From: Candidatus Dormiibacterota bacterium | GTDB taxonomy: Bacteria > Vulcanimicrobiota > Vulcanimicrobiia > Vulcanimicrobiales > Vulcanimicrobiaceae | Reading direction: 5' to 3' | Length of the DNA: 64,000 bases | NCBI GenBank assembly: GCA_035532835.1 | Contig: DATKQG010000087.1 | Coordinates: 1-64,000 of the forward strand | In this document: in pieces, positions 9,231-26,335 of the stretch | Layout: every line of letters begins with the position of its first letter | How positions within the stretch are numbered: position 1 is the stretch's first letter | The notes under the pieces: generated by a model | Told to the model about the DNA's origin: nothing | The model's database searches: none | Seen by the model: the letters and a program-made list of their open reading frames with translations, nothing else | Translations under genes and position numbers: made by a program

Positions 9231-9884
9231 TTAAAATTCCACGTTGAGCGAGCGAGCGAGTTCTTCGAGCAGCACGACTTTCGCTTCATCGAGCGTTACC
9301 GGCCGTCCGAGTTGTTGCGAGAGCGACGTGATGCCGCGATCGGTTAAACCGCACGGATTAATTAGCCGATCGTAATCGAGTTCGGTCGAGACGTTGAGCG
9401 CGATTCCATGCAACGAAACCATCTTCTGAACCGCCAACCCGATCGCGCAAATCTGATCGCGTCCAACCCACACGCCCGCATGTTCGCTCCACCGTTCGGC
9501 GACGACGCCGAAGCGCGCGCACGTTTCGATGACCGCTCCTTCGAGGGATCGCACGAGCGGGACGACTTCGCGAAAGCGTTCTAATTTACGAATCGGATAC
9601 ACGACCAACTGCCCGGGCCCGTGATAAGTCACGTCGCCGCCACGCTCGATTTCAACGACCTCGATGCCGCGCCGTGCTAAAAGATCCGGCGCAATCAAGA
9701 CGTTATCGCGTTTTGCCTGGCGTCCCAGCGTAATAACCGGCGGATGTTCGACGACGATAAACGTATCGGGCTCGCGCCCTTCACGCACCGCGGCATGCAG
9801 CGTATGCTGCAAGTCCCACACTTCGCGGTAAGGCTTGAATCCGAGATCGAGTACGCGCGCGCGCGTCAGAGTTGCCACGCTCAT
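9231..9884 (-). CDS. lipB: Octanoyl-[acyl-carrier-protein]:protein N-octanoyltransferase
   Basis: Transfers octanoate from ACP to lipoyl domains, the step before LipA. The family motifs RGGDVTYHGPGQLVVYP (81-97), LHGIALNV (158-165) and NPCGL with acyl-enzyme Cys178 are all present, and the 217-aa length is normal. One key residue deviates. The strongly conserved lysine preceding I-(A/C)-x-(I/L)-G, which forms the Cys/Lys dyad in the characterised E. coli and M. tuberculosis enzymes (Lys135 and Lys142), is glutamine here (Gln144 in GRDQICAIG, codon CAG). It is co-transcribed with lipA 5 nt downstream. The structured palindrome at 9933-10129 lies 48 nt upstream of its ATG. Confidence 0.94.
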   Translation of the reverse strand: MSVATLTRARVLDLGFKPYREVWDLQHTLHAAVREGREPDTFIVVEHPPVITLGRQAKRDNVLIAPDLLARRGIEVVEIERGGDVTYHGPGQLVVYPIRKLERFREVVPLVRSLEGAVIETCARFGVVAERWSEHAGVWVGRDQICAIGLAVQKMVSLHGIALNVSTELDYDRLINPCGLTDRGITSLSQQLGRPVTLDEAKVVLLEELARSLNVEF

Positions 9885-9932: not shown

Positions 9933-10129
9933 GACGCTGTGGCCCCGGGAGCCGGGTGTCGCGAGGCCCGGTCGGGGAACCGCTGTTGGATTTTACATCC
10001 TGTAAAATCCAACGCTGCTACGTTTTTTGGGCAAAACAAAGTTTTGAAGTTCACATCCTGTGAAGGCCCAAAAAATCGCAGCTTCCCCGACCGGACCTCG
10101 CGCCACCCGGCTCCCGGGGCCATAGCGTC
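9933..10129 (-). repeat. Structured palindromic element, copy 1 (possible ncRNA or MITE-like unit)
   Basis: A 47-bp inverted repeat (9933-9979 with 10083-10129, 44 of 47 positions complementary) closes a 103-nt core. Read on the minus strand, the core folds as follows. A 6-bp stem with a bulged A continues into a 10-bp T/A-and-G/C stem. That stem carries two small hairpins (TTCACA-GGA-TGTGAA and AAAAC-TTT-GTTTT). A 13-bp hairpin with a GGA triloop follows. The core is 91/103 identical to the minus-to-plus equivalent at 26194-26296, with five compensatory pair changes. The element begins 17 nt after the lpdA stop codon and ends 48 nt before lipB. It contains no ORF of note. Strand is given as the orientation matching copy 2; whether it is transcribed is unknown. 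Confidence 0.85.
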
Positions 10130-10146
10130 AACGACGTCGCGCGTAG

Positions 10147-11592
10147 CTACTTTGCCCCGACCGGCGTTTTCGGCTTCGGATTGACGATGTGAATCGCCTT
10201 ACCGTGCGCCGCTTCCGCCGCGTCCATGATGCTTTCGGTCAGGGTCGGATGGGGATGGATCGAGAGCCCGATATCCTCGAGCGTCGCGCCCATCTCGAGC
10301 GCGATGACGCCTTCGCCGATTAGCGATTCGGCTTGCGGTGCGACGATGTGCATGCCCAGCAGCATATCGGTCTTGGCGTCGCCGACGAGTTTGATCAGGC
10401 CGTCGCTTTCATTCATCGTGCGCGCGCGGCCGCTCGCCGCGAGCGGGAACTTGCCGATGCGTACCTCGTAGCCTTTGGCCTTTGCTTCCTCTTCGGAGAG
10501 GCCGATGGTCGCGACTTCCGGATCGGTGTACACGCAGTTCGGAATCGCAATCGGATCGAATGCGGCCGACGTGTCGCCCGCGATCACTTCGGCGGCGATG
10601 ACGCCCTGCTTCATCGCGCGGTGCGCGAGGAGCGGCTGGCCCGTGACGTCGCCGATCGCAAAGATGCTCGGCACTTTCGTGCGGCACTGCTGATCGACCG
10701 CGATGAAGCCCTTATCGTCGACGGCTAGGCCCGCGGCTTGCAGATTGAGCGTATCGGTGACGGGGCGGCGCCCGACGGCGACGAGCACCATGTCGAATTC
10801 GCGCGTCTCGTCTTTGCCGTTGGTGCCTTCGCCGTTGAACGTGGCTTTAACGATCTTGCCGCTCTTTTCGAGTTTGCCGACCTTCGTGTCGAGCATGATT
10901 TCGACGCCTTGTTTCTTGAGGATGCGGCCCAGCGTCTTCGAAATTTCCAGGTCGGTGCCGGTGAGCAACTGCGAGAGCGCTTCGATAACGAGCACCTTCG
11001 CGCCGAGGCGCGTGTAGACGGTGGCGAATTCCAGACCGATCACGCCGCCGCCGATTACCAGCATGTTCTTCGGGATGCGCTTCATTTGGACGGCGTCGTC
11101 CGAATTGATGATGTACTCGCCGTCGCGCGGCCAAGCCTTGACGTCGACCGGTGCCGAGCCGGTGGCGATCACGACGGTTTTCGCGGTGATGCTATCCTCG
11201 CCGCCCTCTTTTTTCTTAAGGACGATTTGCGTCGGGCTCTTGAACGAGGCGTCACCGTACATGAACTGGACGTTGTTGGCCTTGAAGAGCGTCCTGACGC
11301 CGCCGACGTTGGAAGTCACCACATCGGTTTTGAATTTTGCAACGCCCTCGCGATCGACTTCGGCCTTGGGGACCTTTAGGCCGATGTCGGCGGCGTGATC
11401 GATGTGGCGGATGACCTCGCCGACGTGAAGCAACGCCTTCGTTGGAATGCAGCCCCAATTAAGGCACACGCCGCCGATTTCGTCGCGATCGACACAGATG
11501 ACGGTCTTTCCTAGCTGTCCTAACCGGATCGCGGCGTGATAGCCTCCCGGCCCGGCTCCAATGATGACCGCGTCAACCTGATGTTCTGCCAC
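10147..11592 (-). CDS. lpdA: Dihydrolipoyl dehydrogenase (E3)
   Basis: FAD flavoprotein that reoxidises dihydrolipoamide of 2-oxoacid dehydrogenase complexes or the glycine cleavage system using NAD+. The N-terminal FAD motif GAGPGG begins at residue 12, the redox disulfide is CLNWGC (Cys43/Cys48), and a central NAD-binding GGGVIGLE and a second ATG-type FAD contact (AIGDVTGQP) follow. The C-terminal HPHPTLTE carries the catalytic His-Glu pair. Length 481 aa is normal. It lies upstream of lipB and lipA on the same strand, separated by the structured element at 9933-10129. This suggests a shared lipoate theme, although one transcript through the palindrome is not certain. Confidence 0.97.
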   Translation of the reverse strand: MAEHQVDAVIIGAGPGGYHAAIRLGQLGKTVICVDRDEIGGVCLNWGCIPTKALLHVGEVIRHIDHAADIGLKVPKAEVDREGVAKFKTDVVTSNVGGVRTLFKANNVQFMYGDASFKSPTQIVLKKKEGGEDSITAKTVVIATGSAPVDVKAWPRDGEYIINSDDAVQMKRIPKNMLVIGGGVIGLEFATVYTRLGAKVLVIEALSQLLTGTDLEISKTLGRILKKQGVEIMLDTKVGKLEKSGKIVKATFNGEGTNGKDETREFDMVLVAVGRRPVTDTLNLQAAGLAVDDKGFIAVDQQCRTKVPSIFAIGDVTGQPLLAHRAMKQGVIAAEVIAGDTSAAFDPIAIPNCVYTDPEVATIGLSEEEAKAKGYEVRIGKFPLAASGRARTMNESDGLIKLVGDAKTDMLLGMHIVAPQAESLIGEGVIALEMGATLEDIGLSIHPHPTLTESIMDAAEAAHGKAIHIVNPKPKTPVGAK

Positions 11593-11688
11593 CGAAGTTC
11601 GCTCCTAAATAGTTCGAGTATGTGCGTGGGTGAGCGTGCACCCTCCCACATCCTACCAGGCGAAGCCTGCCGTGGCTTCGACCAGAGT

Positions 11689-11730
11689 GGCTAGCATGCT
11701 AGCCGGTCTAGCCGGTCTAGCAGGCTAGCC
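11689..11730. repeat. Palindromic CTAG-rich repeat cluster
   Basis: The 16-base perfect palindrome GGCTAGCATGCTAGCC (11689-11704) is followed by two tandem copies of GGTCTAGCC-like units and a further GGCTAGCC. The cluster runs into the stop codon of the minus-strand ATPase gene. It could fold into alternative hairpins that act as a terminator upstream of lpdA. CTAG is usually rare in bacterial DNA, which makes the run unusual. The rest of 11593-11724 shows no gene. Confidence 0.55.
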
Positions 11731-13854
11731 GAGCTCCGAGGCGGCGAGGCGCCCGAGCTGCCCGAGGTCCAGAGCTTGGGCTTGCGCGGCGGCCGCGTGC
11801 ATCGCATCGGGGCCGAGGGCAGCCGCTAGGCGCTCTTCATCGGCGCGGATCTCCGTGCGCGTGAGGCCGATCGCCGGGATCCGCCTGTCGCGGCGCAGAC
11901 GCCGCGCGGCGAACGAGAGGGGCGCGGCCCGCTCGAACTCTCGCTGGAGCAGCAGCAGGCGAACGGCACTTTCGAGGGTCTGGGCGAGATAGATCGGCTG
12001 GGGAGCCCCGTCGAGCAAGGTAATGGCCGTTCGAAGCGACCGGGCCGCCCCCTGAAGGTCGCCCTTGATGAGGTTGGATCGGCCGATGACTTCGTGTTGC
12101 CAGGCCATCAACGAGGGGCTCTGGGAGCGTTCGAAATATCGGATGGCGCTCTGGGCGCTATTCACTGCCTCCGCCGGGTCGTGCAGAAAGTACGTCGCCT
12201 CGGCGAGGTTGCCATAAGCTATGCCGATCTGGGTATCGGGGCCGCTCTCCAGCAAAATCTCCAACGCTTCCAGGTATCGGCTACGCGCTCCGATCGGGTC
12301 GCTGTGCCCTTCTAGGGCGATATTGCCTTGATTCAGGAGCGCCGATCCGATGCCGGTCGGATGTTCGATCGCGCGATAGAGGGCGACGGCCGTTTCGACG
12401 TAGAGGCTGGCTTCGTCGGTTTTACCGACGTAGAGTGAGGCTACGGCAAGGGCGTTGTAGGCCCGGGCAAGGCCCAGTCGGTCGCCCAAAATCGTGAATG
12501 CGCTGATTGCCGTTGGGCCCAGCGCGAGCATGCGCTGGTAATCGGCGCTCGCGTAGGCCACGCGCATGGCGGCATTCGAGAGCCGGGCGTAGAGGGCTTG
12601 CGGGAGCTGGCCGGCCTGCTCCATCAGTCGCTCCATCCACATCGAGCCCTCGCGCAAGCGGCCGCCGCCGGCCCAGATCGAAACGAGCGAGGTAGCGATG
12701 TCGAGCACGCTCGGAAGCCGATCGTGCGGGCGTTTCAGGGCCCAGGCCAGGGCCGCGCAAGCATCGTCGTACCTTTCGAGCAGTTCGTGCATCGCTTCGC
12801 CGGGCGAGGGCGTGAGCAATTGGCCGTGGATGCGAAGGATCCGGGTGTTGATATGGAGCGCGAAGCGTTCTTCGATCGCCTGTCGATCGGAGCGCCCCCC
12901 CAGCATGCGGGCTGCGATCGCGTGCATCGGCGTCAGCATCGAGTAGCGTGTCGAGTCGGCCCGCACAAGAAGCGAGCGATCGGCGAGCGTCGTAAGCGCT
13001 TGCGCGGTTGAGGGCACGTCGCCCTCGTCGAGCGCGACGATATCGTCCGCGTCGAAGACGCCTGCGAAGGCGCTGGCGAGGGCGAAGACCGCCTGTGCGC
13101 GTTCATCGAGTGGAGCGAGGCTCCAATCGATCATCTTTCCGAGCGAATGGTGTCGCGGATCGCTTCCGGCGCTCGAGCGAAAATGGTATGGGCGCAGGGT
13201 CTCCAATTCGCGCGCGAGTTCGCGGACGCTCAGCGAAGCGAGGCGCGCAGCCGCAAGGTCGATCGCAACGGCCAACCCGTCGAGTCGCTCGACGATCGAG
13301 GCCGCGACCGGCAAATCTTCGGCTGAGAGTTGTACGTTGGCGGCCTTGGCTCGCTGGCGAAAGAACTCGATGCCCGTGGCCGCGTCAAACGGCCCGACCT
13401 CGAGCACGCGCTCGTCCGGATAGTCCAGGCGTCGTTGGCTGGTAGCCACGATCGCTACGTTGTGAATGCGCTGCAGCGCCTCGATCAGCGCGCCGGCCTC
13501 ATCGGGCACGTGCTCGCAGTTATCGAGAACCAGAATCGAGCGCCGAGCTGCCATCTCGTGGTTGATGATGTCCAGCGGATCGCGTCCAACCTGCTCGCGC
13601 GCGCCGACCGCGGCGACGATGGTTCCGAAGACGGCCTCCGGGCCGACGCCGCTAAGCGGCACGAAGATCACGTCGCGGGCTCGGTCCCGCTCGAAGCGCG
13701 CGATCGCTTCGAACGCCAGACGCGATTTTCCGACGCCGCCCGGCCCGACCAACGTTAAAGCCCCGCCGTACTCAAAGAGTGCGAAGAGGCGCTTGAGCTC
13801 GGCGCCGCGTCCAACGAATGGCACGCGCGTATCGACCGAAGTGAAATCGGGCAC
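11725..13854 (-). CDS. STAND/AfsR-like predicted ATPase with TPR region
   Basis: A 709-residue protein opening with a nucleotide-binding module: Walker A GPGGVGKS at 37-44 and Walker B SILVLDNCEH at about 107-116, then ATSQRR (sensor-like) and a winged-helix-like ARC segment to about residue 320. The remainder is helical with tetratricopeptide-like repeats (for example LGLARAYNALAVASLYVGKTDEA). This matches the predicted ATPases usually fused to LuxR or SARP transcriptional domains. No DNA-binding domain is present at either end, so it lacks a recognisable output. It is divergent from the MocR-type regulator gene, 67 nt between starts, and may share control with it. No target can be named. 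Confidence 0.8.
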   Translation of the reverse strand: MPDFTSVDTRVPFVGRGAELKRLFALFEYGGALTLVGPGGVGKSRLAFEAIARFERDRARDVIFVPLSGVGPEAVFGTIVAAVGAREQVGRDPLDIINHEMAARRSILVLDNCEHVPDEAGALIEALQRIHNVAIVATSQRRLDYPDERVLEVGPFDAATGIEFFRQRAKAANVQLSAEDLPVAASIVERLDGLAVAIDLAAARLASLSVRELARELETLRPYHFRSSAGSDPRHHSLGKMIDWSLAPLDERAQAVFALASAFAGVFDADDIVALDEGDVPSTAQALTTLADRSLLVRADSTRYSMLTPMHAIAARMLGGRSDRQAIEERFALHINTRILRIHGQLLTPSPGEAMHELLERYDDACAALAWALKRPHDRLPSVLDIATSLVSIWAGGGRLREGSMWMERLMEQAGQLPQALYARLSNAAMRVAYASADYQRMLALGPTAISAFTILGDRLGLARAYNALAVASLYVGKTDEASLYVETAVALYRAIEHPTGIGSALLNQGNIALEGHSDPIGARSRYLEALEILLESGPDTQIGIAYGNLAEATYFLHDPAEAVNSAQSAIRYFERSQSPSLMAWQHEVIGRSNLIKGDLQGAARSLRTAITLLDGAPQPIYLAQTLESAVRLLLLQREFERAAPLSFAARRLRRDRRIPAIGLTRTEIRADEERLAAALGPDAMHAAAAQAQALDLGQLGRLAASELG

Positions 13855-13921
13855 TATGCGGTAAGATTCGCTGCCATACGGGAAGCGTTCCCGGTAGCGA
13901 CACCGAAAATGGATCGCCTCA

Positions 13922-15388
13922 ATGGCGAAAATTGGATGGAGCGGCCTGCAGCCGGACCTCGATCGAGAGTCGATCGTGCCGTTATACCGCCAGCTCTACG
14001 AACATTTGCGCGAGGCAATTCTGGCGGGAACCCTGCCGGAATCTACACGATTGCCCCCCGAACGTTCGATGGCCGAGCAGTTGGGCGTCAATCGGAGCAC
14101 GGTCGTCCACGCCTACCGCGAACTCGTTGCGGACGGATTGATCGAGCAACGGGTCGGATCCGGATCGCGCGTGGTGCCTCAGCTTCGCGGCGGCCAGCCC
14201 GAGCGGGCGGCCGGTGTGCCGTGGTGGGTGACCCTGCCGCCCTGGAGGGTGGGCGAATTTCCAAACATCTTGGGCGAGCTAGCCGCTAAGCAAGAGCCCG
14301 GGCGCATATCGTTCGTTCAAGGCGTCGCTCCCGACCAGCCGTCGCCGTTGGGGGAACTCGCGCAGTCGTTCGAGCGGGTCGCGCGCGATCCGCGCTTCAT
14401 TCTTTCGTACGGCGATTCGGAAGGCTACGAACCGCTGCGCGCGGCGATCGCTTCTCGGATGAACGCGCAGGGCGCTTCCTCGATCGAGCCCAGAAGCATT
14501 ATCGTGCTGACGGGCTCGACCCAAGGCATCATGATCGTCGCGCAGAGCTTGGCCGAACCCGGCGACGAAATCATCGTCGAATCTCCCTCGTATCCCGGCG
14601 CGCTGCAAATCTTTCAGATCTGCGGCTTGCGCGCGATTCCGGTCCCGGTGGACGATGAGGGCATGCGCGTCGATCACGTCGAGGCGATCTTGCGCACGCG
14701 GCGCCCGCGCTTCATCTACACGATGCCCTCGCTGCATAATCCCACCAATGCGACGATGAACGCCGACCGTCGAGAGCGGTTGGTGACGATCGCCAAACGC
14801 TCGGGCGTGCCGATCATCGAAGACGATCCCTACGGTCCCCTTTTGCGCGAGCCGGTCACCCCGTTGGTGGCTCTGGCTCCCGACCACGTCGTCTATCTAT
14901 CGACGTTCTCGAAGACGATCGCGCCGAGCTTGCGCGTGGGGTGGCTGGCGGCGCCGCGCACGATTCTGGAACGGTTGCTGCTGCGCAAACAGGCATACGA
15001 TATGGCGACGAGTCTCTACGTCCAAGCCGCAATCGTGGATTATCTCGAACGCGGATACGACGCGCACGTGGCGCAGCTTCGCGACGAATTGTTACTGCGA
15101 AGAGGTCTGGCCGATCGGGCGATCGCCGCGGAGTGGCCTTCGACGTTTCGCGTTAGCCCGGCTTCGGGCGGTTTTTACGTGTGGGTAACCACGCCGCGCG
15201 ACATTCGCGCGCGCGCGCTGCTGGATGCATCCGAACGCCTCGGAGCGTCGTTTTTGTTCGGCGAAGCGTTTTTCGCGAACTCGGGGGGCGATCACAATTT
15301 TCGCCTAGCGCTGACGGCCGTCACGCGCGACGAGATCGGCGAAGGCATCGGGCGCATAGGCCGTGCAGTCGCCTCCTTGAAACCGTGA
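13922..15388 (+). CDS. MocR/PdxR-type GntR regulator with aminotransferase domain
   Basis: A GntR winged helix-turn-helix occupies residues 19-85 (VPLYRQLYEHLREAILAG, PPERSMAEQLGVNRSTV). A fold-type-I aminotransferase domain follows, with the PLP lysine at Lys331 in STFSKTIAPS and the substrate-arginine region near the C-terminus. Members of this family use PLP or its adduct as an effector and often control vitamin B6, GABA or taurine genes; some act as real aminotransferases. Length 488 aa is typical. Its stop codon overlaps the GTG of mutY (GTGA), so mutY is translationally coupled. The divergent neighbour is the STAND-like ATPase. The regulated target is not evident. Confidence 0.9.
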   Translation: MAKIGWSGLQPDLDRESIVPLYRQLYEHLREAILAGTLPESTRLPPERSMAEQLGVNRSTVVHAYRELVADGLIEQRVGSGSRVVPQLRGGQPERAAGVPWWVTLPPWRVGEFPNILGELAAKQEPGRISFVQGVAPDQPSPLGELAQSFERVARDPRFILSYGDSEGYEPLRAAIASRMNAQGASSIEPRSIIVLTGSTQGIMIVAQSLAEPGDEIIVESPSYPGALQIFQICGLRAIPVPVDDEGMRVDHVEAILRTRRPRFIYTMPSLHNPTNATMNADRRERLVTIAKRSGVPIIEDDPYGPLLREPVTPLVALAPDHVVYLSTFSKTIAPSLRVGWLAAPRTILERLLLRKQAYDMATSLYVQAAIVDYLERGYDAHVAQLRDELLLRRGLADRAIAAEWPSTFRVSPASGGFYVWVTTPRDIRARALLDASERLGASFLFGEAFFANSGGDHNFRLALTAVTRDEIGEGIGRIGRAVASLKP

Positions 15389-16293
15389 CCCGACTGCAAC
15401 GCCGTTTGCTGCGGTGGTATCGCAACTCCGGTCGTGCGGAACTCCCTTGGCGCACGACGCGCGATCCTTACTTCACGCTGGTGAGTGAATGCATGTTGCA
15501 GCAAACGCAAGTCGATCGCGTGGTGCCTGCATTCGTTGCGTTCATCGAGCGTTTTCCCACCTTAGCCGCGTTAGCGTCGGCGAGTACGGCCGACGTGCTG
15601 CGAATGTGGCGAGGCCTCGGATACAACTCGCGCGCGGTTCGTCTCCACGCCGTCGCGCAGGCGGTCGCCCGCGACTACCTGGGCGAGATGCCCTCAGACC
15701 CGAACGCGCTTCGCGCATTGCCGGGTATCGGGCCCTACACGGCCGCGGCGATCCGCGCGTTCGCATTCGATATCGACGACGCTCCGGTGGATACCAACAT
15801 CAAGCGGATCGTGCATCGCCTGTTCTACGGCATCGAATACCCGATCCGTGCGCGCGAGCCGCAACTCGCGGCTCACGCGCAAGCGCTGGTTCCACCCGGC
15901 CAAGCCCACGACTGGAACTCGGCCATGATGGATTTGGGTGCGACGCTGTGCGGCGCCCGCGCGCCCAAGTGCGAAGCGTGCCCGATCGCCGCGGATTGCG
16001 CGGCGGCGCCGATCGACGCAGCGGCGTTGGAGAGCGCGCGGCGCGCGCATGCCAAACCTCGCGCCGGGAGCACGGAAAGATTCGAAGAGAGCGCCCGGTT
16101 TGCGCGCGGGCGCATCGTCGATCGCCTTCGCGATCTCCCGCCCGGGAAGAAGATTTCGATGCTCGATCTTGCGCGGGATGTGGCCGGCTTGCTGCCCCGG
16201 CGATCCGACGACGAGATCGCCGCATTGGTTTCGGCGTTGCATCGCGAGGGATTGGTGAGCTTAGATCAGGCCGGCGTCGGCTTGCGCGAGTGA
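15385..16293 (+). CDS. mutY: Adenine DNA glycosylase
   Basis: Removes adenine mispaired with 8-oxoguanine. I place the start at GTG 15385, which overlaps the preceding stop and gives the family N-terminus (VTRLQRRLLRWYRN); the longer open frame upstream is antisense-like. Visible are the catalytic Glu in VSECMLQQTQV, the helix-hairpin-helix LPGIGPYTAAAI, the catalytic Asp in APVDTNIKRI, and the [4Fe-4S] ligands C-x6-C-x2-C-x5-C (CGARAPKCEACPIAADC). At 302 aa it is shorter than E. coli MutY. The C-terminal part after the cluster is only about 90 residues and does not look like the full NUDIX-like 8-oxoG-recognition domain. Its 3' end overlaps the convergent dioxygenase gene by 33 bp. Confidence 0.92.
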   Translation: MTRLQRRLLRWYRNSGRAELPWRTTRDPYFTLVSECMLQQTQVDRVVPAFVAFIERFPTLAALASASTADVLRMWRGLGYNSRAVRLHAVAQAVARDYLGEMPSDPNALRALPGIGPYTAAAIRAFAFDIDDAPVDTNIKRIVHRLFYGIEYPIRAREPQLAAHAQALVPPGQAHDWNSAMMDLGATLCGARAPKCEACPIAADCAAAPIDAAALESARRAHAKPRAGSTERFEESARFARGRIVDRLRDLPPGKKISMLDLARDVAGLLPRRSDDEIAALVSALHREGLVSLDQAGVGLRE

Positions 16294-16776
16294 GAGGCTG
16301 GTGAGGCCCCGATCGTCGACGACCGTATAGGCGCCCAGCGGCGCGGCGTAGAGTTGTAGCGAGTACGCCGCGCGCTCGAACGAATTGCTGACGCGATGGA
16401 GTTCCTTGGGGCCGGATCTGCGATCGATTGCTCCCGACGTGAGCCGCGAGGGCGCGAAGCTGCGCAGGTCTGCCACCGCATCGGTGCCGTCATTCAGCCG
16501 TTCGAAGTTCTCGACGTCGAGGTTGCCGTCCAACACGACCACCCAGCAGCGCGAGTCTCCGTGGTCGTGGATGGGGCTGCGGGAACCGGGTGCCCATAGC
16601 ATTGCAACGATTTCGAATTCGGCATTACGTTGCAAGCGCGTTCGCGTGTACGCGCCTGCCGCAAACGGCATCGTATCGCGGTATTCGCCGAAACGCCCGA
16701 TACTATGGAGCATCGCTTCGACGAAGTCGTAATTGGCCATGGCCTCGTACAGAGCGCCGCGAAGATCGGCGATCAC
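16261..16776 (-). CDS. Cysteine dioxygenase-type thiol dioxygenase
   Basis: A 171-residue cupin that oxidises a thiol to a sulfinate using non-haem iron. The iron ligands are His70 and His72 in PIHDHG and His127 in KELHRVSN. Cys77 and Tyr143 sit where the Cys-Tyr crosslink forms in mammalian-type enzymes. The start is GTG 16776, overlapping the stop of the upstream flavoprotein gene (GTGA), so the genes are translationally coupled; an extended frame upstream is antisense to that gene. Substrate could be cysteine, 3-mercaptopropionate or a peptide thiol. The partners are an FAD/NAD(P) protein and a TPR/ATP-grasp protein, which do not belong to ordinary taurine or cysteine catabolism. Confidence 0.88.
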   Translation of the reverse strand: MIADLRGALYEAMANYDFVEAMLHSIGRFGEYRDTMPFAAGAYTRTRLQRNAEFEIVAMLWAPGSRSPIHDHGDSRCWVVVLDGNLDVENFERLNDGTDAVADLRSFAPSRLTSGAIDRRSGPKELHRVSNSFERAAYSLQLYAAPLGAYTVVDDRGLTSLSLAQADAGLI

Positions 16777-18137
16777 GATACGGCTTCCAACGCGCCGATT
16801 CCATGCTCGGTGATGAGGCATTTCGCGATACGCCGGGCCTGCTCGCGAATCTCGGGAACGGCCGTCGTCTCGTACCATCGGCCGCGGGTCGGCGGCCCCA
16901 ACGCGTACATCGACGGCTGAGCGTGGCCGGAGCGGTCGAGCACGCGAAGATCTTGCGATACCTCGATACCCAAATGGAGTTCGTCGGCTAACAGCAGGCC
17001 TCGGCGCATGAGGTTGACCACGAGCTGATTACGGGAGCGTTCGTAGTCACCGTTTGGGCCGGTGCAGTTGACGATGTCGGTGACACCGATCGCGCTCGTG
17101 CCCTCGGCGTTAACGATGCGAAGGACGAGACGTTCGCGCTCGCGATGAGCGGCCGAGATACGCCCGCGATGGCGTACGATCGCGTTACGTGCGCGGAGGC
17201 GTTCGAATGCCTGCGCGGTTTGAGGCGGCACGCGATATCGATGCGCGGTCCAGAATGAGTGGAGATGCTCGAGAAATTGCCGCTGCTGGCGGCTGCTCCA
17301 TCCTTCCCATATCGCCGGGGATATCTTGCGGATCGATTCGGCGACTTCGCGCCAATCGCCGCCACGCGCTTCTCGCGCTGCCGCCGCGGCGCGCATCGTG
17401 TGTAATAGCGAGAGCGGGGTGCCCGTATCGAGCGCGAGCGTAGCCGGATCGAGCCCGCGCGCGCGGACGTTCTCGACGGCGGGGAGCAACCCGCGTCGCG
17501 AGATGATGTGGATTGTGCCGTCGTAGCCACGCTCTTCCAAGAGCGCGACGATATCCATTGCGGTGAGACCGCTTCCAACCAGCGCGATGGCGCTCCCGCG
17601 CAGTACCGATGCGTCGAAATGCCACGGGTCGCGCACGTAGCCGGCATCCGCTCGAACCGCGCGCGGCAGGAAGGCATCGTTCGGCTCGTGGTTGCCTAGC
17701 GCGAGGACTACCGAACCGGCCGAGAATTCTTGCCCGGCGTCGTCACGCGCGACATAGCCTCCCCCGCGGCGCTCGATATCGACGATGCGATTGCGCGAGA
17801 GCGCGATGCCGGGATGCGCTGCGAGCGCGCGATCGAACTGCTCCGCCAAATAGCGCCCGAAGAGCTTGCGCGGTATCAAGCGATCGTCCGATTCAGGGCC
17901 GAGCCAGCGGACCAGATCCGCCGGGTCTTCCGGTACGGCGCTCATCGCCCTGGCCGGGCCGTTCATAAGCAAACGGTCGGAGCCGGGAGCGTATGCCGTT
18001 CCCGGGCCGGGGGAAGCCGCATCGAAGATCATCGCGCGAAACGACGGCGGCGCTGTCTTGGCAAGCGACGCGGCAACGACGGTGCCGGCGAGGCCGGCTC
18101 CGACGATGACGGAATCCAGGGCCTCCGTTCGTTTCAT
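16773..18137 (-). CDS. FAD/NAD(P)-binding oxidoreductase (NAD_binding_9 type)
   Basis: A 454-residue flavoprotein with an N-terminal Rossmann motif VIVGAGLAGTVVA (residues 10-22). The stretch AYAPGSDRLLMNGPA is typical of the pfam13454-like group, a second dinucleotide-type motif is ALVGSGLTAMDIVA, and the C-terminal YALGPPTRGRWYETT closes over the flavin. Family members are poorly characterised; some pair with oxygenases or siderophore enzymes. It is the middle gene of a coupled operon: 8 nt after the TPR/ATP-grasp gene, and its stop overlaps the start of the thiol dioxygenase gene. It probably oxidises or hydroxylates the same metabolite; the substrate is unknown. Confidence 0.82.
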   Translation of the reverse strand: MKRTEALDSVIVGAGLAGTVVAASLAKTAPPSFRAMIFDAASPGPGTAYAPGSDRLLMNGPARAMSAVPEDPADLVRWLGPESDDRLIPRKLFGRYLAEQFDRALAAHPGIALSRNRIVDIERRGGGYVARDDAGQEFSAGSVVLALGNHEPNDAFLPRAVRADAGYVRDPWHFDASVLRGSAIALVGSGLTAMDIVALLEERGYDGTIHIISRRGLLPAVENVRARGLDPATLALDTGTPLSLLHTMRAAAAAREARGGDWREVAESIRKISPAIWEGWSSRQQRQFLEHLHSFWTAHRYRVPPQTAQAFERLRARNAIVRHRGRISAAHRERERLVLRIVNAEGTSAIGVTDIVNCTGPNGDYERSRNQLVVNLMRRGLLLADELHLGIEVSQDLRVLDRSGHAQPSMYALGPPTRGRWYETTAVPEIREQARRIAKCLITEHGIGALEAVS

Positions 18138-18145
18138 GGCTATTT

Positions 18146-19408: not shown

Positions 19409-19473
19409 TTGTGCGTTTTGCCGATCGATTGCGGGGACATGGCCGGTGGCTTCTGGAACGTCGTCACCCTGCC

Positions 19474-20223
19474 ATGCCGAAAATTCCGTTTCCCACCAAG
19501 AACGTCCCGAAGGCGGTCGCTAAGCAAGAGCTGGCGATCCTCGAACGCACGTATCCGGCGGCCGTCACGGCGCTTGAGTACCACAATCCGTTCGAATTGC
19601 TCGTAGCGGTGATTCTCTCGGCACAGTGCACGGATGCGCGCGTGAATCTCACGACCCCGGCGTTGTTCGCGGCATATCCAACGCCGAACGAGCTGGCAGA
19701 AGCCCACCTCACCGACGTCGAACGGATCATCAAATCGTGCGGGTTCTATCGCATGAAGGCCAAGCATATCGTTAGCGCGGCGAGCGATCTGGTCGAGCGT
19801 TTCGGCGGGGAGGTGCCGCGCGAGCGCGACGATCTGGAATCGCTCGACGGCGTCGGGCGGAAGACGGCAAACGTCGTGATGTCGGTTGCATTCGAGGAAG
19901 CCGCGTTCGCGGTCGATACGCACGTTTTTCGCGTGGCGCATCGTTTGGGGTTGACGCAGGGGACGACGCCCCGACAAGTCGAGGCGGACGTTACCGCGAT
20001 CGTGCCGCGGCAGAAGTGGCGGTACGCGCATCATTGGCTGATTCTGCACGGGCGCGCGATTTGCAAGGCGCCCGTGCCGCGGTGCGGCGAATGCCCCGTC
20101 GCGGCGATCTGCCCGACCCCGCCGATTATCGCTAAAATGACAACGGTCCGGGCCCGGAAAGGTGCGGCGGCGGTGGAAGCTCCGCGTCGTGCGCGAGCAC
20201 TTTCAACACGCCGGACGCGGTGA
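19474..20223 (+). CDS. nth: Endonuclease III
   Basis: DNA glycosylase/AP lyase for oxidised pyrimidines. Start chosen at ATG 19474, giving MPKIPFPTKNVPK; the frame further upstream overlaps the divergent gene and has an Arg-rich shadow composition. The helix-hairpin-helix LDGVGRKTANVV carries the catalytic Lys130, Asp148 lies in AVDTHVFRV, and the [4Fe-4S] ligands are Cys197, 204, 207 and 213. The core is family length (about 225 aa) with an extra basic tail. The last 92 bp overlap the convergent hypothetical gene at 20132-20650. The paralogue mutY lies 3 kb upstream on the same strand. Confidence 0.94.
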   Translation: MPKIPFPTKNVPKAVAKQELAILERTYPAAVTALEYHNPFELLVAVILSAQCTDARVNLTTPALFAAYPTPNELAEAHLTDVERIIKSCGFYRMKAKHIVSAASDLVERFGGEVPRERDDLESLDGVGRKTANVVMSVAFEEAAFAVDTHVFRVAHRLGLTQGTTPRQVEADVTAIVPRQKWRYAHHWLILHGRAICKAPVPRCGECPVAAICPTPPIIAKMTTVRARKGAAAVEAPRRARALSTRRTR

Positions 20224-20650
20224 GGCGTTCGCCGTAGCCGGCTTCGGTCGAAATCTTCGAGAGGTTGACGAGCGACGGCACCGGAGCCTCCAGATCGAAC
20301 TGATACTCGCCCTCCAGCCCCATGCCGGTCATCTGCACGAGTTGCCGTACCGGATCGAGATCGATCGTCACGCGATGCTCGCCAAAGCGCAAGCGCAGGC
20401 GAAGCGGACGTTCCAATCGCACGAATTTGACGCCGCGCGGCCCGAGAATCGCGTTGAGGCGTTTACACGCGATCGCCAATTGCTCGGCGAAGAGTGCGAG
20501 CGACTCGTCCGCATCTTCCGGACGCCGCTCCTGCCGCCCGCCGCCGGCCGCGTCGATCAGCTTGCCGATTTCGCGGCGATCGCGAATGCGCGACGCGGCC
20601 GCGACGATGGGGTTCTGGGCGGTAAAATCCGGTTCGAATGGGTCTGCCAT
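20132..20650 (-). CDS. Hypothetical protein, 172 aa
   Basis: I do not recognise this family. The start is placed at the ATG giving MADPFEPDFTAQNP; the upstream extension of 30 codons is Arg-rich and overlaps the divergent peptidase leader. The protein is soluble, with a helical middle part (DADESLALFAEQLAIACKRL) and a C-terminal half containing LRLRFGEHRVTIDLDP. It overlaps the 3' end of nth in antisense by 92 bp. The divergent peptidase gene starts 29 nt away, so the two probably share a promoter region. Confidence 0.65.
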   Translation of the reverse strand: MADPFEPDFTAQNPIVAAASRIRDRREIGKLIDAAGGGRQERRPEDADESLALFAEQLAIACKRLNAILGPRGVKFVRLERPLRLRLRFGEHRVTIDLDPVRQLVQMTGMGLEGEYQFDLEAPVPSLVNLSKISTEAGYGERLTASGVLKVLAHDAELPPPPHLSGPGPLSF

Positions 20651-20679
20651 GATGATGGCTCCAAGTATTCTCGCTCGGG

Positions 20680-22827
20680 ATGCTGAAGCCCGGCAGTATG
20701 ATCGGACGTCTCTGGCTCTTGCTCGGGCTCGTTGTCGCATGCTCGGGCGCCGCGCCCGCTCCGGCAGCGACCGTGCTCACCGCCGCCGCGGCCTTCGGCC
20801 GCGAGCCCCTCTGGGGGCGCCTCCCATCGCGCATCGCATGGGCGCCGGACGGCCACGCCTTTACCTACGTGTTGCCCGGGGCCGATCCAAGCGAGCCGCT
20901 CGGCGTGCACGTCTACGACGTCGCCTCGGGGCGCTCGCGCGAATTGCTCCCGGCGGTCGCTTTCGGGCAACGCGGGCGCACGCCGGGAAACGTCATCTGG
21001 GCGCCTCGCGGCAACGCGCTGCTCTACGTACAGCACGGCGCCCTGTTCGTCGATAGCCTGACGCATCGCAAGATCCGGCGCATCGCACGGGGTGCGGTCG
21101 ACCCGCAATGGTCGCCGGACGGTACGTCGATCGCCTACGTTCACGCCGGCGATCTCTACCGTGCATCGCTCGTTCCCGCCGTACGCATCGAACGCCTGAC
21201 GCGCGGTGCCGTTGGGAATCGCGTCATCAATGGCGATCTCGATTGGGTATATCCGGAAGAGCTTGGGACCGCGCACGGATTCGCGTGGTCGGGCGACGGC
21301 AAGCGCATCGCCTACTTACACTTCGACGAGCGTGCGGTAACGGCGTTTCCGATCGACGATTTCTTGCCGTACGATAATCGCATTCACACCGAACGCTATC
21401 CGCTCGCGGGTGAAAAGAATCCCCGCGTTTCGCTACGCGTCATCGATCTCGCGACGCATCGCGACACGCTCGTCTACGACGCATCCAAGCGCGATGAGTA
21501 TCTGCCGTGGTTCGCCTGGGTTCCGCATACGTCCGATCTCACCGCCGAGGTGATGGACCGTGCCCAGCAGCACGTTCGGGTGCTACGCTGGAGCGGCAGC
21601 GCGCGGGAGCCGCGCGTGGTGCTTCAACAGCGCGACGCCGACTGGGTGGACGTGATCGAACGTCCGCATTGGCTTGCGGACGGGACTTCGTTCTGGGTAC
21701 TCGACCGAGATGGAACTGCAGGGCTGTATCTCCGCGACCGGACGGGGCATCTGACGCGCTTGACCGGAACCTACCACGTCGACTCGATCCTGGGCGTCGA
21801 CCCGCGAACGAAGCGAGCGTTTGTGGTCGCGAATTATCCGACCCGGCGCGATACCTCGCTGTTGGCGGTGCAACCGGATGGACGGGTGCTGAATCTTACG
21901 CCCGGCGGCGGGACCCACAACGTGTCGCTTTCGCCCGACGCTTCGCGCTTCGTCGATACGTACTCGACGATCAACGACCCACCGCAGGTCGATCTGGTTG
22001 ACGTGCGCGGCGATCGCGTTCGCGCCACGCTCGCGCATCGGAGCACGGCGCTTGCCTCGATGCTGCAGCCGGTCCAGATGCTCAGCGTACCGTCGAAATA
22101 CGGGCCGCTGGACGCATGGATGCTCAAACCGCCGAATTTCGATCCGGCCAAACGCTACCCCGCGATCGTGTACGTTTACGGTGGGCCGGCTGCGCCGACG
22201 ACGATGAACGGGTTCGGTTACCGCACCGCTCTCTACCATCAGCTTCTCGCAAAGCAAGGATTCATCGTATTCAGCATCGACGGCCCCGCATCGCAGATCG
22301 ATAGCGACGCGCACGTACGCTTGCTCCGCGAGAACTTTGGGCCCGGCTCGCTGTTGGGGCAAGAGATCGGCGCTCGTTATCTTTCGTCTCTTCCGTACGT
22401 AGACGCGCAAAAAATCGGCATCTGGGGTTGGAGTTTCGGCGGATACGAAACGACCTTCGCTCTCACGCATTCGCATCTGTTCGCCGCGGGGGTAGCCGTC
22501 GCGCCCGTCACCGACTGGCACCTCTACGATACGATCTACACCGAACGCTACATGGGCCTGCCGCAGCAACACGCAAAAGCGTACGATCGCAGTTCGGTCT
22601 TGAACGCGGCCGGCAATTTAAGCGCGCCGTTGCTGATCAATCACGGCACGAGCGACGACAACGTCCACATGGCCAATACGATCTCGTTCCTACAACGAGC
22701 GATCGAAGCCGGCCGCACAAACGTCGACCTGATGTTATACCCTCGCCAGTTGCACGGATTGGCCGCGCTTCCGGATACACGCTACGTATTCGAGAGAATG
22801 CTCGCGTGGTGGGAGAGCCATCTCTAG
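20680..22827 (+). CDS. Exported prolyl oligopeptidase, S9B dipeptidyl-peptidase IV type
   Basis: A 715-residue serine exopeptidase. A signal sequence (MIGRLWLLLGLVVACSG, following the first or second ATG) targets it to the periplasm or outer membrane. Residues about 40-470 form the N-terminal beta-propeller and contain DWVYPEELG, which corresponds to the double-glutamate motif that binds the substrate amino terminus. The C-terminal alpha/beta-hydrolase has nucleophile Ser585 (GWSFGGYE), Asp659 (HGTSDDNVH) and His692 (RQLHGLA), all intact. It likely cleaves Xaa-Pro dipeptides in peptide scavenging. The start at 20680 has an alternative at 20698; the latter gives the more usual signal peptide. 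Confidence 0.93.
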   Translation: MLKPGSMIGRLWLLLGLVVACSGAAPAPAATVLTAAAAFGREPLWGRLPSRIAWAPDGHAFTYVLPGADPSEPLGVHVYDVASGRSRELLPAVAFGQRGRTPGNVIWAPRGNALLYVQHGALFVDSLTHRKIRRIARGAVDPQWSPDGTSIAYVHAGDLYRASLVPAVRIERLTRGAVGNRVINGDLDWVYPEELGTAHGFAWSGDGKRIAYLHFDERAVTAFPIDDFLPYDNRIHTERYPLAGEKNPRVSLRVIDLATHRDTLVYDASKRDEYLPWFAWVPHTSDLTAEVMDRAQQHVRVLRWSGSAREPRVVLQQRDADWVDVIERPHWLADGTSFWVLDRDGTAGLYLRDRTGHLTRLTGTYHVDSILGVDPRTKRAFVVANYPTRRDTSLLAVQPDGRVLNLTPGGGTHNVSLSPDASRFVDTYSTINDPPQVDLVDVRGDRVRATLAHRSTALASMLQPVQMLSVPSKYGPLDAWMLKPPNFDPAKRYPAIVYVYGGPAAPTTMNGFGYRTALYHQLLAKQGFIVFSIDGPASQIDSDAHVRLLRENFGPGSLLGQEIGARYLSSLPYVDAQKIGIWGWSFGGYETTFALTHSHLFAAGVAVAPVTDWHLYDTIYTERYMGLPQQHAKAYDRSSVLNAAGNLSAPLLINHGTSDDNVHMANTISFLQRAIEAGRTNVDLMLYPRQLHGLAALPDTRYVFERMLAWWESHL

Positions 22828-22841
22828 GAGCCGGCTGCGAT

Positions 22842-22875
22842 AAAAAAAACGGCGCAGTCCGTGAGGACCGCACCG
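22842..22875 (-). terminator. Rho-independent terminator of the lysine-rich protein gene
   Basis: On the minus strand an 11-bp stem (with two G-U pairs) around a TCAC loop is followed by eight Ts. It lies 35 nt past the stop codon of the gene at 22910-23335. On the plus strand the same stem has two A-C mismatches and no T-tract, so it is specific to the minus strand. Confidence 0.85.
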
Positions 22876-22909
22876 TGATTGGATGGATATAATAAGGACG
22901 AGGTTTGTG

Positions 22910-23335
22910 CTACGGGGCCTTGGTGGCCTTCGGAGCCGGCTTGGTCGCCTTCATCGAGGACGCCTTTTTGGTCGTCTTCGCTGCGGCTTTCTTGGCGGAG
23001 GTAGCCTTCTTGGCGGTCTTCTTAGCGGCCGGCTTGGCAGCCGACTTCTTCGAGGACGCCTTCTTGGCAACAGCCTTCTTGTCGGCCATCTTCTGAAGCG
23101 GAGCCTTGGTGGCCTTAGCAGCCGGCTTGGCAGCCTTCTTCATCGGAGCGGCTTTCTTGGCGGAAGTAGCCTTCTTGGCGGTCTTCTTAGCGGCCGGCTT
23201 GGCAGCCGACTTCATCGAGGACGCCTTCTTGGTCGTCGCGGTCTTGGTGGTGGCAGTCTTCGTCGCCGAAGCAGCCATCGCCGGGCCGGTCATCAAAAAC
23301 GCGGCAGCAACGAGCGATGCGATCATCTTATTCAT
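22910..23335 (-). CDS. Exported histone-H1-like Lys/Ala-rich repeat protein
   Basis: The 141-residue protein starts with a good Sec signal peptide (MNKMIASLVAAAFLMTGPAMA). The mature part is then almost only Lys, Ala, Thr, Ser and Pro, with AAKPAAKKTAKKATSAKKAA-like blocks repeated twice. The composition resembles eukaryotic H1 tails and bacterial HctB/AlgP-like proteins, but those act in the cytoplasm and lack a signal peptide. A strong Shine-Dalgarno (AGGAGG at 23345-23350) sits 9 nt before the chosen ATG; the GTG three codons earlier overlaps that site and is rejected. The gene stands alone with its own terminator. The mature protein could bind acidic envelope polymers or extracellular DNA; this is inference. 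Confidence 0.85.
   Translation of the reverse strand: MNKMIASLVAAAFLMTGPAMAASATKTATTKTATTKKASSMKSAAKPAAKKTAKKATSAKKAAPMKKAAKPAAKATKAPLQKMADKKAVAKKASSKKSAAKPAAKKTAKKATSAKKAAAKTTKKASSMKATKPAPKATKAP
22985..23213. repeat. 64-bp direct repeat pair inside the lysine-rich gene
   Basis: Bases 22985-23048 and 23150-23213 differ at a single position and are spaced by 165 bp (55 codons), keeping frame. This points to recent internal duplication and possible length variation by slippage or recombination. Confidence 0.85.
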
Positions 23336-23452
23336 GTAGTACACCTCCTTTTCGTAGCAAAATCTCCCGCTTCGTGAGAACCACGAAAGGGACGTTACCT
23401 TTCAGCAACGTTACGCTCAGCCCGAAAGTTCGCCCCGGGGAAATCTGCCCCT
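23336..23452 (-). promoter_or_regulatory. Leader and promoter region of the lysine-rich protein gene
   Basis: This 117-nt gap holds the strong Shine-Dalgarno at 23345-23350 and, upstream of it on the minus strand, a small hairpin TCGTG-GTTCT-CACGA. A G/C-rich segment and two TAACG-containing stretches lie further up. The layout could be a structured leader, but I cannot match it to a known riboswitch class and see no convincing -35/-10 pair. Confidence 0.3.
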
Positions 23453-24619
23453 TTACTTGCCTTTGCCCACGAGGGCGCGCGAGATGACCAGGCGCTGGAT
23501 CTGCTGGGTGCCTTCGTAAATCTGCGTGATCTTGGCATCGCGCATCATGCGCTCCACCGGATACTCCGACGAATAGCCGAAGCCGCCAAGGACCTGTACC
23601 GCATCGGTCGAGACCGACATCGCGACGTCGCCGCACTTAAGCTTCGCCATCGAGGCCCAGAGCGAGACGTCGGCCGCACCTTGGTCGCATTTGCGCGCTG
23701 CTTCATACAGGAGCATACGGGCGGCTTCGACTTCGGTTTTCATATCCGCGAGCATGAATCCGACGCCCTGGTGCTGGCCGATCGGTTTGCCGAAAGCGAT
23801 GCGTTCTTTAGCATAGTTGATCGCGTAGTCGAGCGCTCCGGCCGCGATGCCCAGAGCCTGGGCGGCGATGCCCGGTCGCGACTTATCGAGCACTTTCATC
23901 GCGATCTTGAAACCTTCGCCTTCTTCGCCGATCCGATTGGCCGCGGGAATCTCGCATCCGTCAAAAACCAACTCGACGGTCGGCGACCCGCGGATGCCCA
24001 TTTTTTTCTCTTTCTTGCCCACGGTGAAGCCCTTCGTCCCTTTTTCGACGACGAAGGCACTGACGCCGCGCGAACCCGCCGTGGGATCGGTGGTGGCGAA
24101 GACGCAGACGATGTCGGCGACGCTGCCGTTGGTGATCCAAATCTTCTGGCCGTCGAGCACGTAGTTATCGCCGCGTTTGGTCGCCCGAGTATGCATCGAA
24201 CCAAGTGCGTCCGACCCGCTCGAAGCTTCGGTGAGCGCGTAAGCCGCAATCTTCTTACCGGATGCGATATCGGGAAGGAAGCGCTTCTTTTGCTCTTCGC
24301 TTCCGCCGATGAGAATCGGCAGCATGCCGAGTTCTTGCACCGCCACGATCAGCGAACTGGAGGCACACGCCTTGGCGATCTCTTCGACGACCTTCACGTA
24401 GGTCAAGAACGTTCCGCCCAACCCCCCGTACTCGGTCGGGATCGGAATGCCCATGAGGTCGTTTTGGGCGAAGAGCTCTTTGATATCGGTTGGAAACTCC
24501 GCGGTCTCGTCGATCTCTGCGGCGCGCGGTGCGACTTTTTCGGCAACCAATTCGCGCACCATTTGGAGGATCATCGCCTCCTCTTCGGCATCGTGCGCTT
24601 GCGGTGGTGCTACGGCCAT
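23453..24619 (-). CDS. Acyl-CoA dehydrogenase
   Basis: A 388-residue FAD enzyme of beta-oxidation or branched-chain amino acid breakdown. Seen are the flavin- and substrate-contacting YALTEASSGSD, WITNG, and the C-terminal IYEGTQQIQR, where Glu369 is the catalytic base of the short-chain/butyryl type. Length and domain order (helical N domain, beta middle, helical C domain) are normal. It is divergent from the CoA-transferase genes 99 nt away, which fits a short-chain acyl-CoA or ketone-body module. Start ATG 24619 gives MAVAPPQAHDAEEEAM, an N-terminal tail slightly longer than usual. Confidence 0.94.
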   Translation of the reverse strand: MAVAPPQAHDAEEEAMILQMVRELVAEKVAPRAAEIDETAEFPTDIKELFAQNDLMGIPIPTEYGGLGGTFLTYVKVVEEIAKACASSSLIVAVQELGMLPILIGGSEEQKKRFLPDIASGKKIAAYALTEASSGSDALGSMHTRATKRGDNYVLDGQKIWITNGSVADIVCVFATTDPTAGSRGVSAFVVEKGTKGFTVGKKEKKMGIRGSPTVELVFDGCEIPAANRIGEEGEGFKIAMKVLDKSRPGIAAQALGIAAGALDYAINYAKERIAFGKPIGQHQGVGFMLADMKTEVEAARMLLYEAARKCDQGAADVSLWASMAKLKCGDVAMSVSTDAVQVLGGFGYSSEYPVERMMRDAKITQIYEGTQQIQRLVISRALVGKGK

Positions 24620-24718
24620 GATCCGGTCTCTCCTAATTGTGGGGTGGGATTGCCTTTCGAACGTTTCAACGGTCGCTCAAGAGGGACCCGTTAAGGGGCG
24701 GGGCGCAATACTCGCCTT

Positions 24719-25474
24719 ATGGAGAAAGTCTTTGCGACGTGCGCCCAGGCCGTTGCCGACATCCCAAGCGGCGCGTCGCTTGCGGTCGGCGGCTTCGGGC
24801 TCAACGGCATTCCACACAACCTCATCGAGGCATTACTCGAGCAGGGCGCTACCGGTTTGGTGACCGTTTCGAATAACTGCGGCGTCGACGGTTGGGGCCT
24901 TGGCGTGCTGCTCGATCACAAGCGCGTTCGGCGCACGACGGGTTCGTACGTCGGCGAAAACAAAGAGTTCGAACGCCAGTACCTCAGCGGCGAACTGGAG
25001 GTCGAGCTGGTGCCGCAGGGCACGCTCGCCGAACGCCTGCGCGCCGGCGGCTGCGGCATTCCCGCGTTCTACACCCCGGCCGGGAACGGTACGATGATTG
25101 CCGACGGCGGCCTCCCGTGGAAGTACGCACCCGACGGTTCGATTGCCCTCGGTTCGCCCAAGAAAGAGACGCGTGCGTTCAACGGACACGATTACGTGTT
25201 GGAAGAGGGCATCGTCTGCGATTTCGCGTTAGTACGTGCGTCGGTCGCCGACACGTCCGGCAATCTCATCTTTCACAAGGCGACGCGAAACTTCAACCCG
25301 CTATGCGCAATGGCCGGGCGCATCACGATCGCCGAGGTGGAGGAGTTGGTCGAGCCCGGGCAGATCGATCCGGAGGACGTCCATCTCCCCGGCATCTTCG
25401 TGCAGCGGATCGTGAAAGTCGGCGCACAGGGCAAACGCATCGAGCGCACGACGACGCGCAAGCGGGAGGCATAA
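24719..25474 (+). CDS. 3-oxoacid CoA-transferase subunit A
   Basis: The 251-residue subunit of a class I CoA-transferase (ScoA/AtoD type) moving CoA between succinyl-CoA or acetyl-CoA and a 3-oxoacid. Recognisable are the N-terminal [18 protein letters not shown], the segment [13 protein letters not shown] and [18 protein letters not shown]. The partner subunit starts 4 nt after its stop, so an A-B heteromer is formed. The exact substrate (acetoacetate or another 3-oxoacid) cannot be read. The divergent neighbour is an acyl-CoA dehydrogenase, which suggests fatty acid, ketone or polyhydroxyalkanoate catabolism. Confidence 0.95.
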
Positions 25475-25478
25475 CACC

Positions 25479-26147
25479 ATGGCATTAACGCGAACCCAGC
25501 TTGCAGCGCGCGTCGCGCAAGAACTGCGCGACGGCCAGTACGTCAATCTCGGCATCGGCCTGCCGACGCTGATTCCCAACTACGTTCCCAGCGGCGTCTC
25601 CGTCACGCTGCAGAGCGAGAACGGCATCCTCGGAATGGGCCCGTACCCGTACGAAGGCGAAGAAGATGCCGACCTCATCAACGCCGGCAAAGAGACCGTG
25701 ACGGTATTGCCCGGCGCGTCGTTCTTCGACTCCGCACTCTCCTTCGGCATGATTCGCGGCGGCCACATCGATGTAGCGGTCCTCGGCGCCATGCAAGTGA
25801 GCGAACGCGGCGATCTTGCGAACTGGATGATTCCCGGCAAGATGGTCAAAGGCATGGGCGGCGCGATGGATCTGGTACACGGCGCCAAACGCGTGATCGT
25901 GATGATGGAGCACGTCGCCAAAGGCAACGCGCATAAAATCGTGCGCGAATGCTCGCTGCCGCTCACCGGCCGCCGCGTCGTGCATCAGATCATTACCGAC
26001 ATGGCCGTAATCGACGTCACGCCCGACGGCCTGGTGCTGCGAGAGGTGGCCCCGGGCGTGAGCGTCGACGACGTGCGCGCAGCCACCGAACCGACGCTAC
26101 TACTCCCCGACGCGCCCAAAGAAATGCGAATCCCCGCAAACGTCTAG
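25479..26147 (+). CDS. 3-oxoacid CoA-transferase subunit B
   Basis: The 222-residue catalytic subunit paired with the gene just upstream. The active-site Glu47 that forms the CoA thioester lies in [11 protein letters not shown], and the family stretches [25 protein letters not shown] and [10 protein letters not shown] are present. Length is normal. The gene ends 7 nt before the structured palindromic element at 26155-26335, beyond which the convergent ABC exporter gene ends. Confidence 0.95.
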
Positions 26148-26154
26148 ATTCGCT

Positions 26155-26335
26155 ACGAGGTCGTTCCGCCGCCCGGGAACGGTGGTTGGGGAAGCTGCGA
26201 TTTTTTTGGCCCAAACAGGATGTTTGCTTCAAAGCTTCGCTTTGCCAAAAAAACGTAGCAGCGTTGGATTTTACAGGACGTAAAATCCAACAGCGGTTCC
26301 CCAACCACCGTTCCCGGGCGGCGGAACGACCTCGT
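26155..26335 (+). repeat. Structured palindromic element, copy 2 (possible ncRNA or MITE-like unit)
   Basis: A perfect 39-bp inverted repeat (26155-26193 with 26297-26335) closes a core of exactly 103 nt (26194-26296). The core aligns without gaps to the reverse complement of 9980-10082. Relative to copy 1 the stems change in paired fashion: one G-C to T-A in the bulged stem, three consecutive pairs in the first small hairpin (CAAACA-GGA-TGTTTG here), and one A-T to G-C in the second. Only two differences are not compensatory: one in a loop and one at a loop-closing pair. The outer arms share only the inner GGGGAA/TTCCCC and a few bases with copy 1. It sits 7 nt past the stop of the CoA-transferase subunit B gene and 12 nt before the convergent ABC exporter stop. 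Confidence 0.88.

Follow-up and report, generated by a model that had tools for sequence, protein, structure and literature searches.

A family of dispersed gene-end palindromes with a conserved folded core in one order of Eremiobacterota

Two palindromic elements in the window

The window, i.e. the whole 64,000-nucleotide stretch of DNA analysed here (contig DATKQG010000087.1 of assembly GCA_035532835.1), carries two copies of a structured element. Copy 1, on the minus strand, lies directly behind the stop codon of an upstream gene for a dihydrolipoyl-dehydrogenase-type flavoprotein (10147-11592, minus strand; Pfam Pyr_redox_2 and Pyr_redox_dim), with a gene for a lipoyl ligase/transferase downstream (9231-9884, minus strand; Pfam LplA-B_cat). 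Its conserved 103-nt core of subfamily A (9980-10082) is enclosed by the two locus-specific arms of a closing stem, the 47-nt 5' arm at 10083-10129, found by repeat search, and the 3' arm at 9933-9979, which is 94% complementary to it. The core contains hairpin 1 (10050-10064, TTCACAGGATGTGAA, with an A(N)GGAX-type loop), hairpin 2 (10032-10046, CAAAACTTTGTTTTG) and hairpin 3 (9985-10013, with a 13-bp stem and the loop CAGGATG), all on the minus strand. Copy 2, on the plus strand, is situated between a gene for a CoA transferase subunit on its left (25479-26147, plus strand, stop at 26147; Pfam) and a convergent ABC transporter gene on its right (26348-28171, minus strand; Pfam). Repeat search placed its locus-specific arms at 26155-26193 (5', 39 nt) and 26297-26335 (3'), which are 100% complementary to each other. 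Its 103-nt core, also of subfamily A (26194-26296), bears hairpin 1 at 26212-26226 (CAAACAGGATGTTTG), hairpin 2 at 26230-26244 (CAAAGCTTCGCTTTG) and hairpin 3 at 26263-26291 (loop CAGGACG). The U-rich stem of this core has a bulged A at 26200 that is kept in most copies in our alignments A2 and A3; its counterpart in copy 1 is position 10076, a T in plus-strand notation.

A preceding sequence-only reading had held that the two cores align without gaps and differ at 12 positions, ten of them forming compensated pairs, and we recover exactly this alignment. Placing it on the fold confirms five such pairs: one in the bulged stem (G-C/T-A), three in hairpin 1 (T-A/C-G, T-A/A-T and C-G/A-T) and one in hairpin 2 (A-T/G-C). 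The last two differences are both T/C, one in the hairpin-2 loop and the other at the pair that closes the hairpin-3 loop. Compared with dinucleotide shuffles, the core folds of copies 1 and 2 attain z-scores of -16.5 and -14.8, respectively. The arms, which lie outside the cores recognised by that reading, belong to this structure as its closing stem, although copy 1 and copy 2 share no arm sequence. In the ortholog of copy 1 in the genome G001, the 3' arm is kept with 6 changes and the 5' arm with 4.

Distribution and anatomy of the family

DNA searches of the genome from which the window derives (2.89 Mb) recovered 9 subfamily A copies, together with about 24 that form a second subfamily (B); besides the two in the window, the genome has at least 30 family copies. 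A covariance model built from these copies of both subfamilies (R1) matched 37 of 98 relatives. A second model built solely from other genera (R2) matched 63 of 149 Eremiobacterota genomes, all belonging to the families f1 and f2 of a single order of these soil bacteria, with at least ~390 matches in total; no match was seen in any listed genome of genus g24. R2 also recovered both copies in the window (9969-10093, E 2.2e-26; 26183-26307, E 1.1e-23). In a pattern scan of named genomes, all 14 matching stretches from 'Candidatus Eremiobacterota' MAGs were also model matches, and neither of the two further pattern matches, in one Bradyrhizobium and one Proteobacteria genome, was. As had been claimed from the sequence, no Rfam family fits: none is detected at the gathering score across the whole window, and a relaxed scan returned only generic long-hairpin matches (miRNA-type and SRP), all below gathering, which we dismiss as long-hairpin artefacts. 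This is a real, previously undescribed and order-specific family of structured elements.

The whole element is a palindrome of ~190 bases, in which a locus-unique stem of 20-50 bp closes a conserved core of ~100 nt; this core has the layout first described from the two copies, namely a bulged stem, two small hairpins and a long hairpin. Read on the strand with the GGA loops (the GGA strand), the consensus order is a locus-specific arm, a short conserved stem (GGGGAA/TTCCCC in the window's genus), the bulged stem, hairpin 1, a CTTC stretch, hairpin 2 (in subfamily A), hairpin 3 and the other arm. The bulged stem has a conserved unpaired A and a 5' side that is usually T-rich, and the arms, with a median length of 38 bp, are almost entirely Watson-Crick paired. 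Hairpin 1 displays GGA in 80 of 83 copies from other genera and in every one of the 49 scored copies from g1, and its loop takes the form C-A(N)GGAX-G in 71 of those 83. Hairpin 3 shows GGA in 57 and CGA in 25 of the same 83 copies. An additional, more diverged group stands beside subfamilies A and B (L142, L143, L144 and L061 in G000; L138 and L139 in G001), some copies of which have longer cores or merely short arms. In L041, L043 and L044 (G001:C238, G001:C239 and G000:C36) hairpin 1 is interrupted at ..CATCCT by an identical sequence, CATATGATGTGAAGTGGGGAGCGTAGAACGCCCCCC..., which resembles the end of an insertion sequence with a hairpin; a transposase was not found.

Covariation and strand bias

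The sequence-only reading had suggested building a covariance model and looking for covariation in further copies, and the outcome is strongly positive. Standard pairs fill 97.4% of the pair cells in alignment A2, against 38-52% in slid controls. For A3, which comprises 83 copies from other genera and, having been aligned with R1, leans towards the R1 structure, the corresponding values are 91.6% and 38-46%; A3 has 998 double-change cells, against 300 upon shuffling. On the GGA strand, the outer arms contain 122 G.T and 42 A.C oppositions (~3:1), with an excess at all distances and in 67 copies versus 17. This excess is similar in ++, +- and -- gene contexts. The preference for G.U over A.C among non-Watson-Crick pairs irrespective of gene orientation implies that one strand, as RNA or single-stranded DNA, is the one that counts. 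Among 12 ortholog pairs from two sister species, the core has diverged by 1.1%, as against 8.1% for the mostly coding flanks. Taken together, the strand bias and a core sevenfold less diverged than its surroundings make selection on a folded single strand likely, and there is good support for a role of the GGA strand in its folded form.

Genomic placement and turnover

Among copies whose context could be called by an ORF heuristic, 55 lie between convergent genes, 47 between tandem genes and only 4 between divergent ones; 34 of the tandem copies are antisense and 13 sense to transcription. Stop codons typically occur within 20 nt of the element. In the broad sense the element is thus REP-like, a dispersed extragenic palindrome of gene ends that avoids divergent promoters. 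Certain sites within operons are common to different genera: the element occupies the nuoD/nuoE junction in G037, G025 and G013, the nuoF/nuoG junction in G037 and G030, and the nuoK/nuoL junction in G042 and G059.

Its orientation can flip at a site without loss of the site, and in roughly half of the ortholog pairs the core, as read from the assembled sequences, points the other way round with respect to its flanks. In the 12 pairs, 29 arm pairs have changed on both sides and are still Watson-Crick, and the one-sided arm changes comprise 11 that involve G.U and 18 that involve mismatches; from the rate per side we calculate that only ~5 double changes of any kind would be expected. In L053/L126 the double changes are clustered. 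Template switching of DNA between the arms of inverted repeats is known to homogenise arms and to invert spacers without selection (PMC8604942, PMC8794818). The excess of double changes over G.U intermediates, together with the core inversions, matches what template switching produces, and compensation alone is hence no proof of selection. Accordingly, of the earlier proposal that the structure itself is under selection, the conclusion draws support from the G.U strand bias and the constrained core, whereas the argument offered for it, that drift would not preserve pairing, is unsafe given template switching. Selection alone is too simple a cause for the pairing.

At sites shared across genera the cores are mostly 0.61-0.74 identical (the exception being g37/g30, at 0.92), whereas identity to cores at other loci of the same genus is 0.76-1.0, with most values at 0.88-1.0. 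This indicates that cores are homogenised or replaced while the sites persist. G059 harbours four near-identical duplicates (L205, L206, L207 and L209); two of them, L205 and L206, have core and arms in common in otherwise unrelated surroundings, which shows that a core can take its arms along. We set aside an origin of the arms from the target, through an insertion inverting it, because the recent duplicates L205/L206 share arms and the inner arms of L032/L034 are near-identical. L126 and L139 (G001:C118 and G001:C12) have arms of more than 100 bp near contig starts, which may represent assembly fold-backs or real arm extension, and were handled as possible fold-backs.

Discussion

As our best, if tentative, account, we posit that the element acts as a single strand in folded form, most probably as RNA from the GGA-loop strand, and that a protein reads its core. 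Such RNA might be made at gene ends by read-through or antisense transcription. The protein would recognise the core through the exposed loops of hairpin 1 (C-A(N)GGAX-G) and hairpin 3 (GGA or CGA) along with the bulged stem; of the long closing stem, nothing but pairing would be required. In the DNA palindrome, template switching would transfer changes from arm to arm and flip the core, cores would be homogenised within a genus, and the loci would stay fixed. This proposal is consistent with the covariation, strand bias, core constraint, kept arm pairing, CsrA-like loop, prevalence of csrA and sites shared across genera. Against it weigh the antisense excess, the lack of a promoter signal, a genus without csrA, csrA-positive genomes without the element, the CGA in hairpin 3 and the stability of the stems. 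A sigma-70 promoter of its own is rejected, as sigma-70-like promoters are not enriched over shuffles on either strand; given also the antisense excess in operons and the lack of T-run enrichment, the source of the GGA-strand RNA is not evident.

Our best guess is RNA to which a GGA-loop protein binds, and for the reader itself CsrA is the leading candidate, a testable one rather than a conclusion, and a doubtful one. Known sites of this type are the CsrB repeat, CAGGA(U/A/C)G, and the high-affinity RsmE consensus, A(N)GGAX carried by a stem (PMC7652899, PMC4005645); hairpin 1 likewise has GGA in its loop, with A(N)GGAX atop a stem. Nearly all members of the bacterial family have csrA. In genus g9 (G009 and G042) fliW is present and no csrA match was obtained; in G009 flagellin directly follows fliW, and csrA was apparently lost in place, judging from this neighbourhood. 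The elements of G042 retain GGA in hairpin 1. In L260 (G009:C1:552954-555311) the fliW-flagellin gap lacks csrA, which occupies it in the window's genome. Many csrA-positive genomes are without the element, and no clear association emerged from co-distribution. Very stable stems have been suggested to disfavour CsrA binding (PMC7652899). Were CsrA the reader, the element would serve it as a decoy or docking site in dispersed form; if it is not, the reader would be some other GGA-loop-binding protein. Like the CsrA-sequestering sRNAs CsrB, CsrC and RsmZ, the element presents CAGGA(N)G or A(N)GGAX loops on stems, with more than one site per RNA. However, those are single sRNA genes with many sites, whereas here ~35 dispersed 190-nt palindromes have locus-specific stems, no promoter is seen, and the element is retained in a genus lacking csrA.

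A less likely account casts the element as a semi-selfish palindrome of extragenic DNA, non-autonomous, with the hairpin of its GGA strand processed as single-stranded DNA by some enzyme. Gene ends would then be where insertions are tolerated, and cores would be re-copied among fixed sites. Its multiple copies and patchy occurrence (as in g24, without a match in the listed genomes), its placement at gene ends with almost no divergent sites, the antisense excess in operons, the greater likeness of cores to same-genus loci than to the same locus elsewhere, and a strand bias independent of transcription all accord with this. REP, REPIN and BIME sequences and ERIC are similarly dispersed, extragenic, imperfect palindromic hairpins at gene 3' ends and in operon interiors, but have conserved ends, in contrast to the conserved centre, locus-specific arms and in-place compensated evolution seen here. 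Among the element-bearing family members checked, G000 and G001 included, only G020 has the Y1 (RAYT/TnpA) transposase PF01797. Reverse transcriptase (PF00078) is absent from G000, G001, G013, G025, G030, G037 and most others checked, occurring in 3 family members among them, and no integron integrase (TIGR02249) exceeds the cut-off in any of 62 genomes. Identities as a REPIN, a retroelement or attC are rejected because the partner enzyme is missing. Integron attC sites, too, keep structure above sequence, have an extrahelical base, are strand-specific and stand behind stop codons; here, however, the conserved part is central rather than terminal, and the copies are dispersed without cassette arrays. 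The want of such enzymes speaks against the semi-selfish origin, as do sites common to several genera, the low core divergence in place and the lack of decayed relics, the matches listed for the window's genome bottoming out at ~70 bits.

An intercistronic or 3'-end mRNA hairpin functioning in either orientation is unlikely. In this case the 20-50 bp stem would block exonucleases or serve as an RNase III substrate and so adjust transcript ends and the stoichiometry of operons, and some general factor would bind the core as a loop. The observed placement (gene ends, gaps between convergent genes, the interior of the nuo operon) and the tolerance of flips with the site kept would be expected of it; yet it leaves the strong core conservation unexplained, and the G.U bias stays on the GGA strand even where the mRNA carries the other one.

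That the inverted repeats are perfect solely through template switching and spacer inversion, without structural selection, is quite improbable and already disfavoured. The process is known (PMC8604942, PMC8794818) and would yield the surplus of double over one-sided G.U changes, the clustered doubles of L053/L126 and the core inversions; arm homogenisation and spacer inversion are indeed features shared with template-switching inverted repeats. Nevertheless, a double-strand process should not favour G.U over A.C on one strand, and here a family has a constrained core, conserved bulge and loops, strand-biased mismatches and covariation even in hairpins of 4-7 bp. An intrinsic bidirectional terminator, suggested by convergent genes being the commonest context, is rejected as very improbable, since the element sits inside nuo operons and a T-run of four or more directly follows the stem in just 1 of 129 cases on the GGA strand and 5 of 130 on the other.

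A bolder reading would see here a bacterial element of a new kind. Fixed sites at gene ends would exchange a folded core that is conserved and strand-specific, each site retaining its own perfectly paired arms, and no transposase, reverse transcriptase or integron integrase of the tested types would take part; the result would be a self-maintaining palindrome turned genome-wide docking RNA or single-stranded DNA for one protein. We consider this reading distinctly doubtful. Irrespective of its function, the element represents a large structured family missing from Rfam, confined to a single order of a little-studied phylum and with exceptionally clean covariation. Its hundreds of copies hold both of the usually confounded causes of compensatory change, with strand-biased G.U as the signature of folded-strand selection, and double changes and spacer inversion as those of template switching. 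Should the GGA loops bind CsrA, these bacteria would possess the Csr decoy system in a dispersed form; failing that, another reader of GGA loops is left to find.

Elsewhere in the window, a different small palindrome, GGATTCGCCCGCAGGCGAATCCACCACCTA, occurs at 1856-1890 and 1971-2002 as a direct repeat ~115 bp apart, with a terminator-like hairpin in between.
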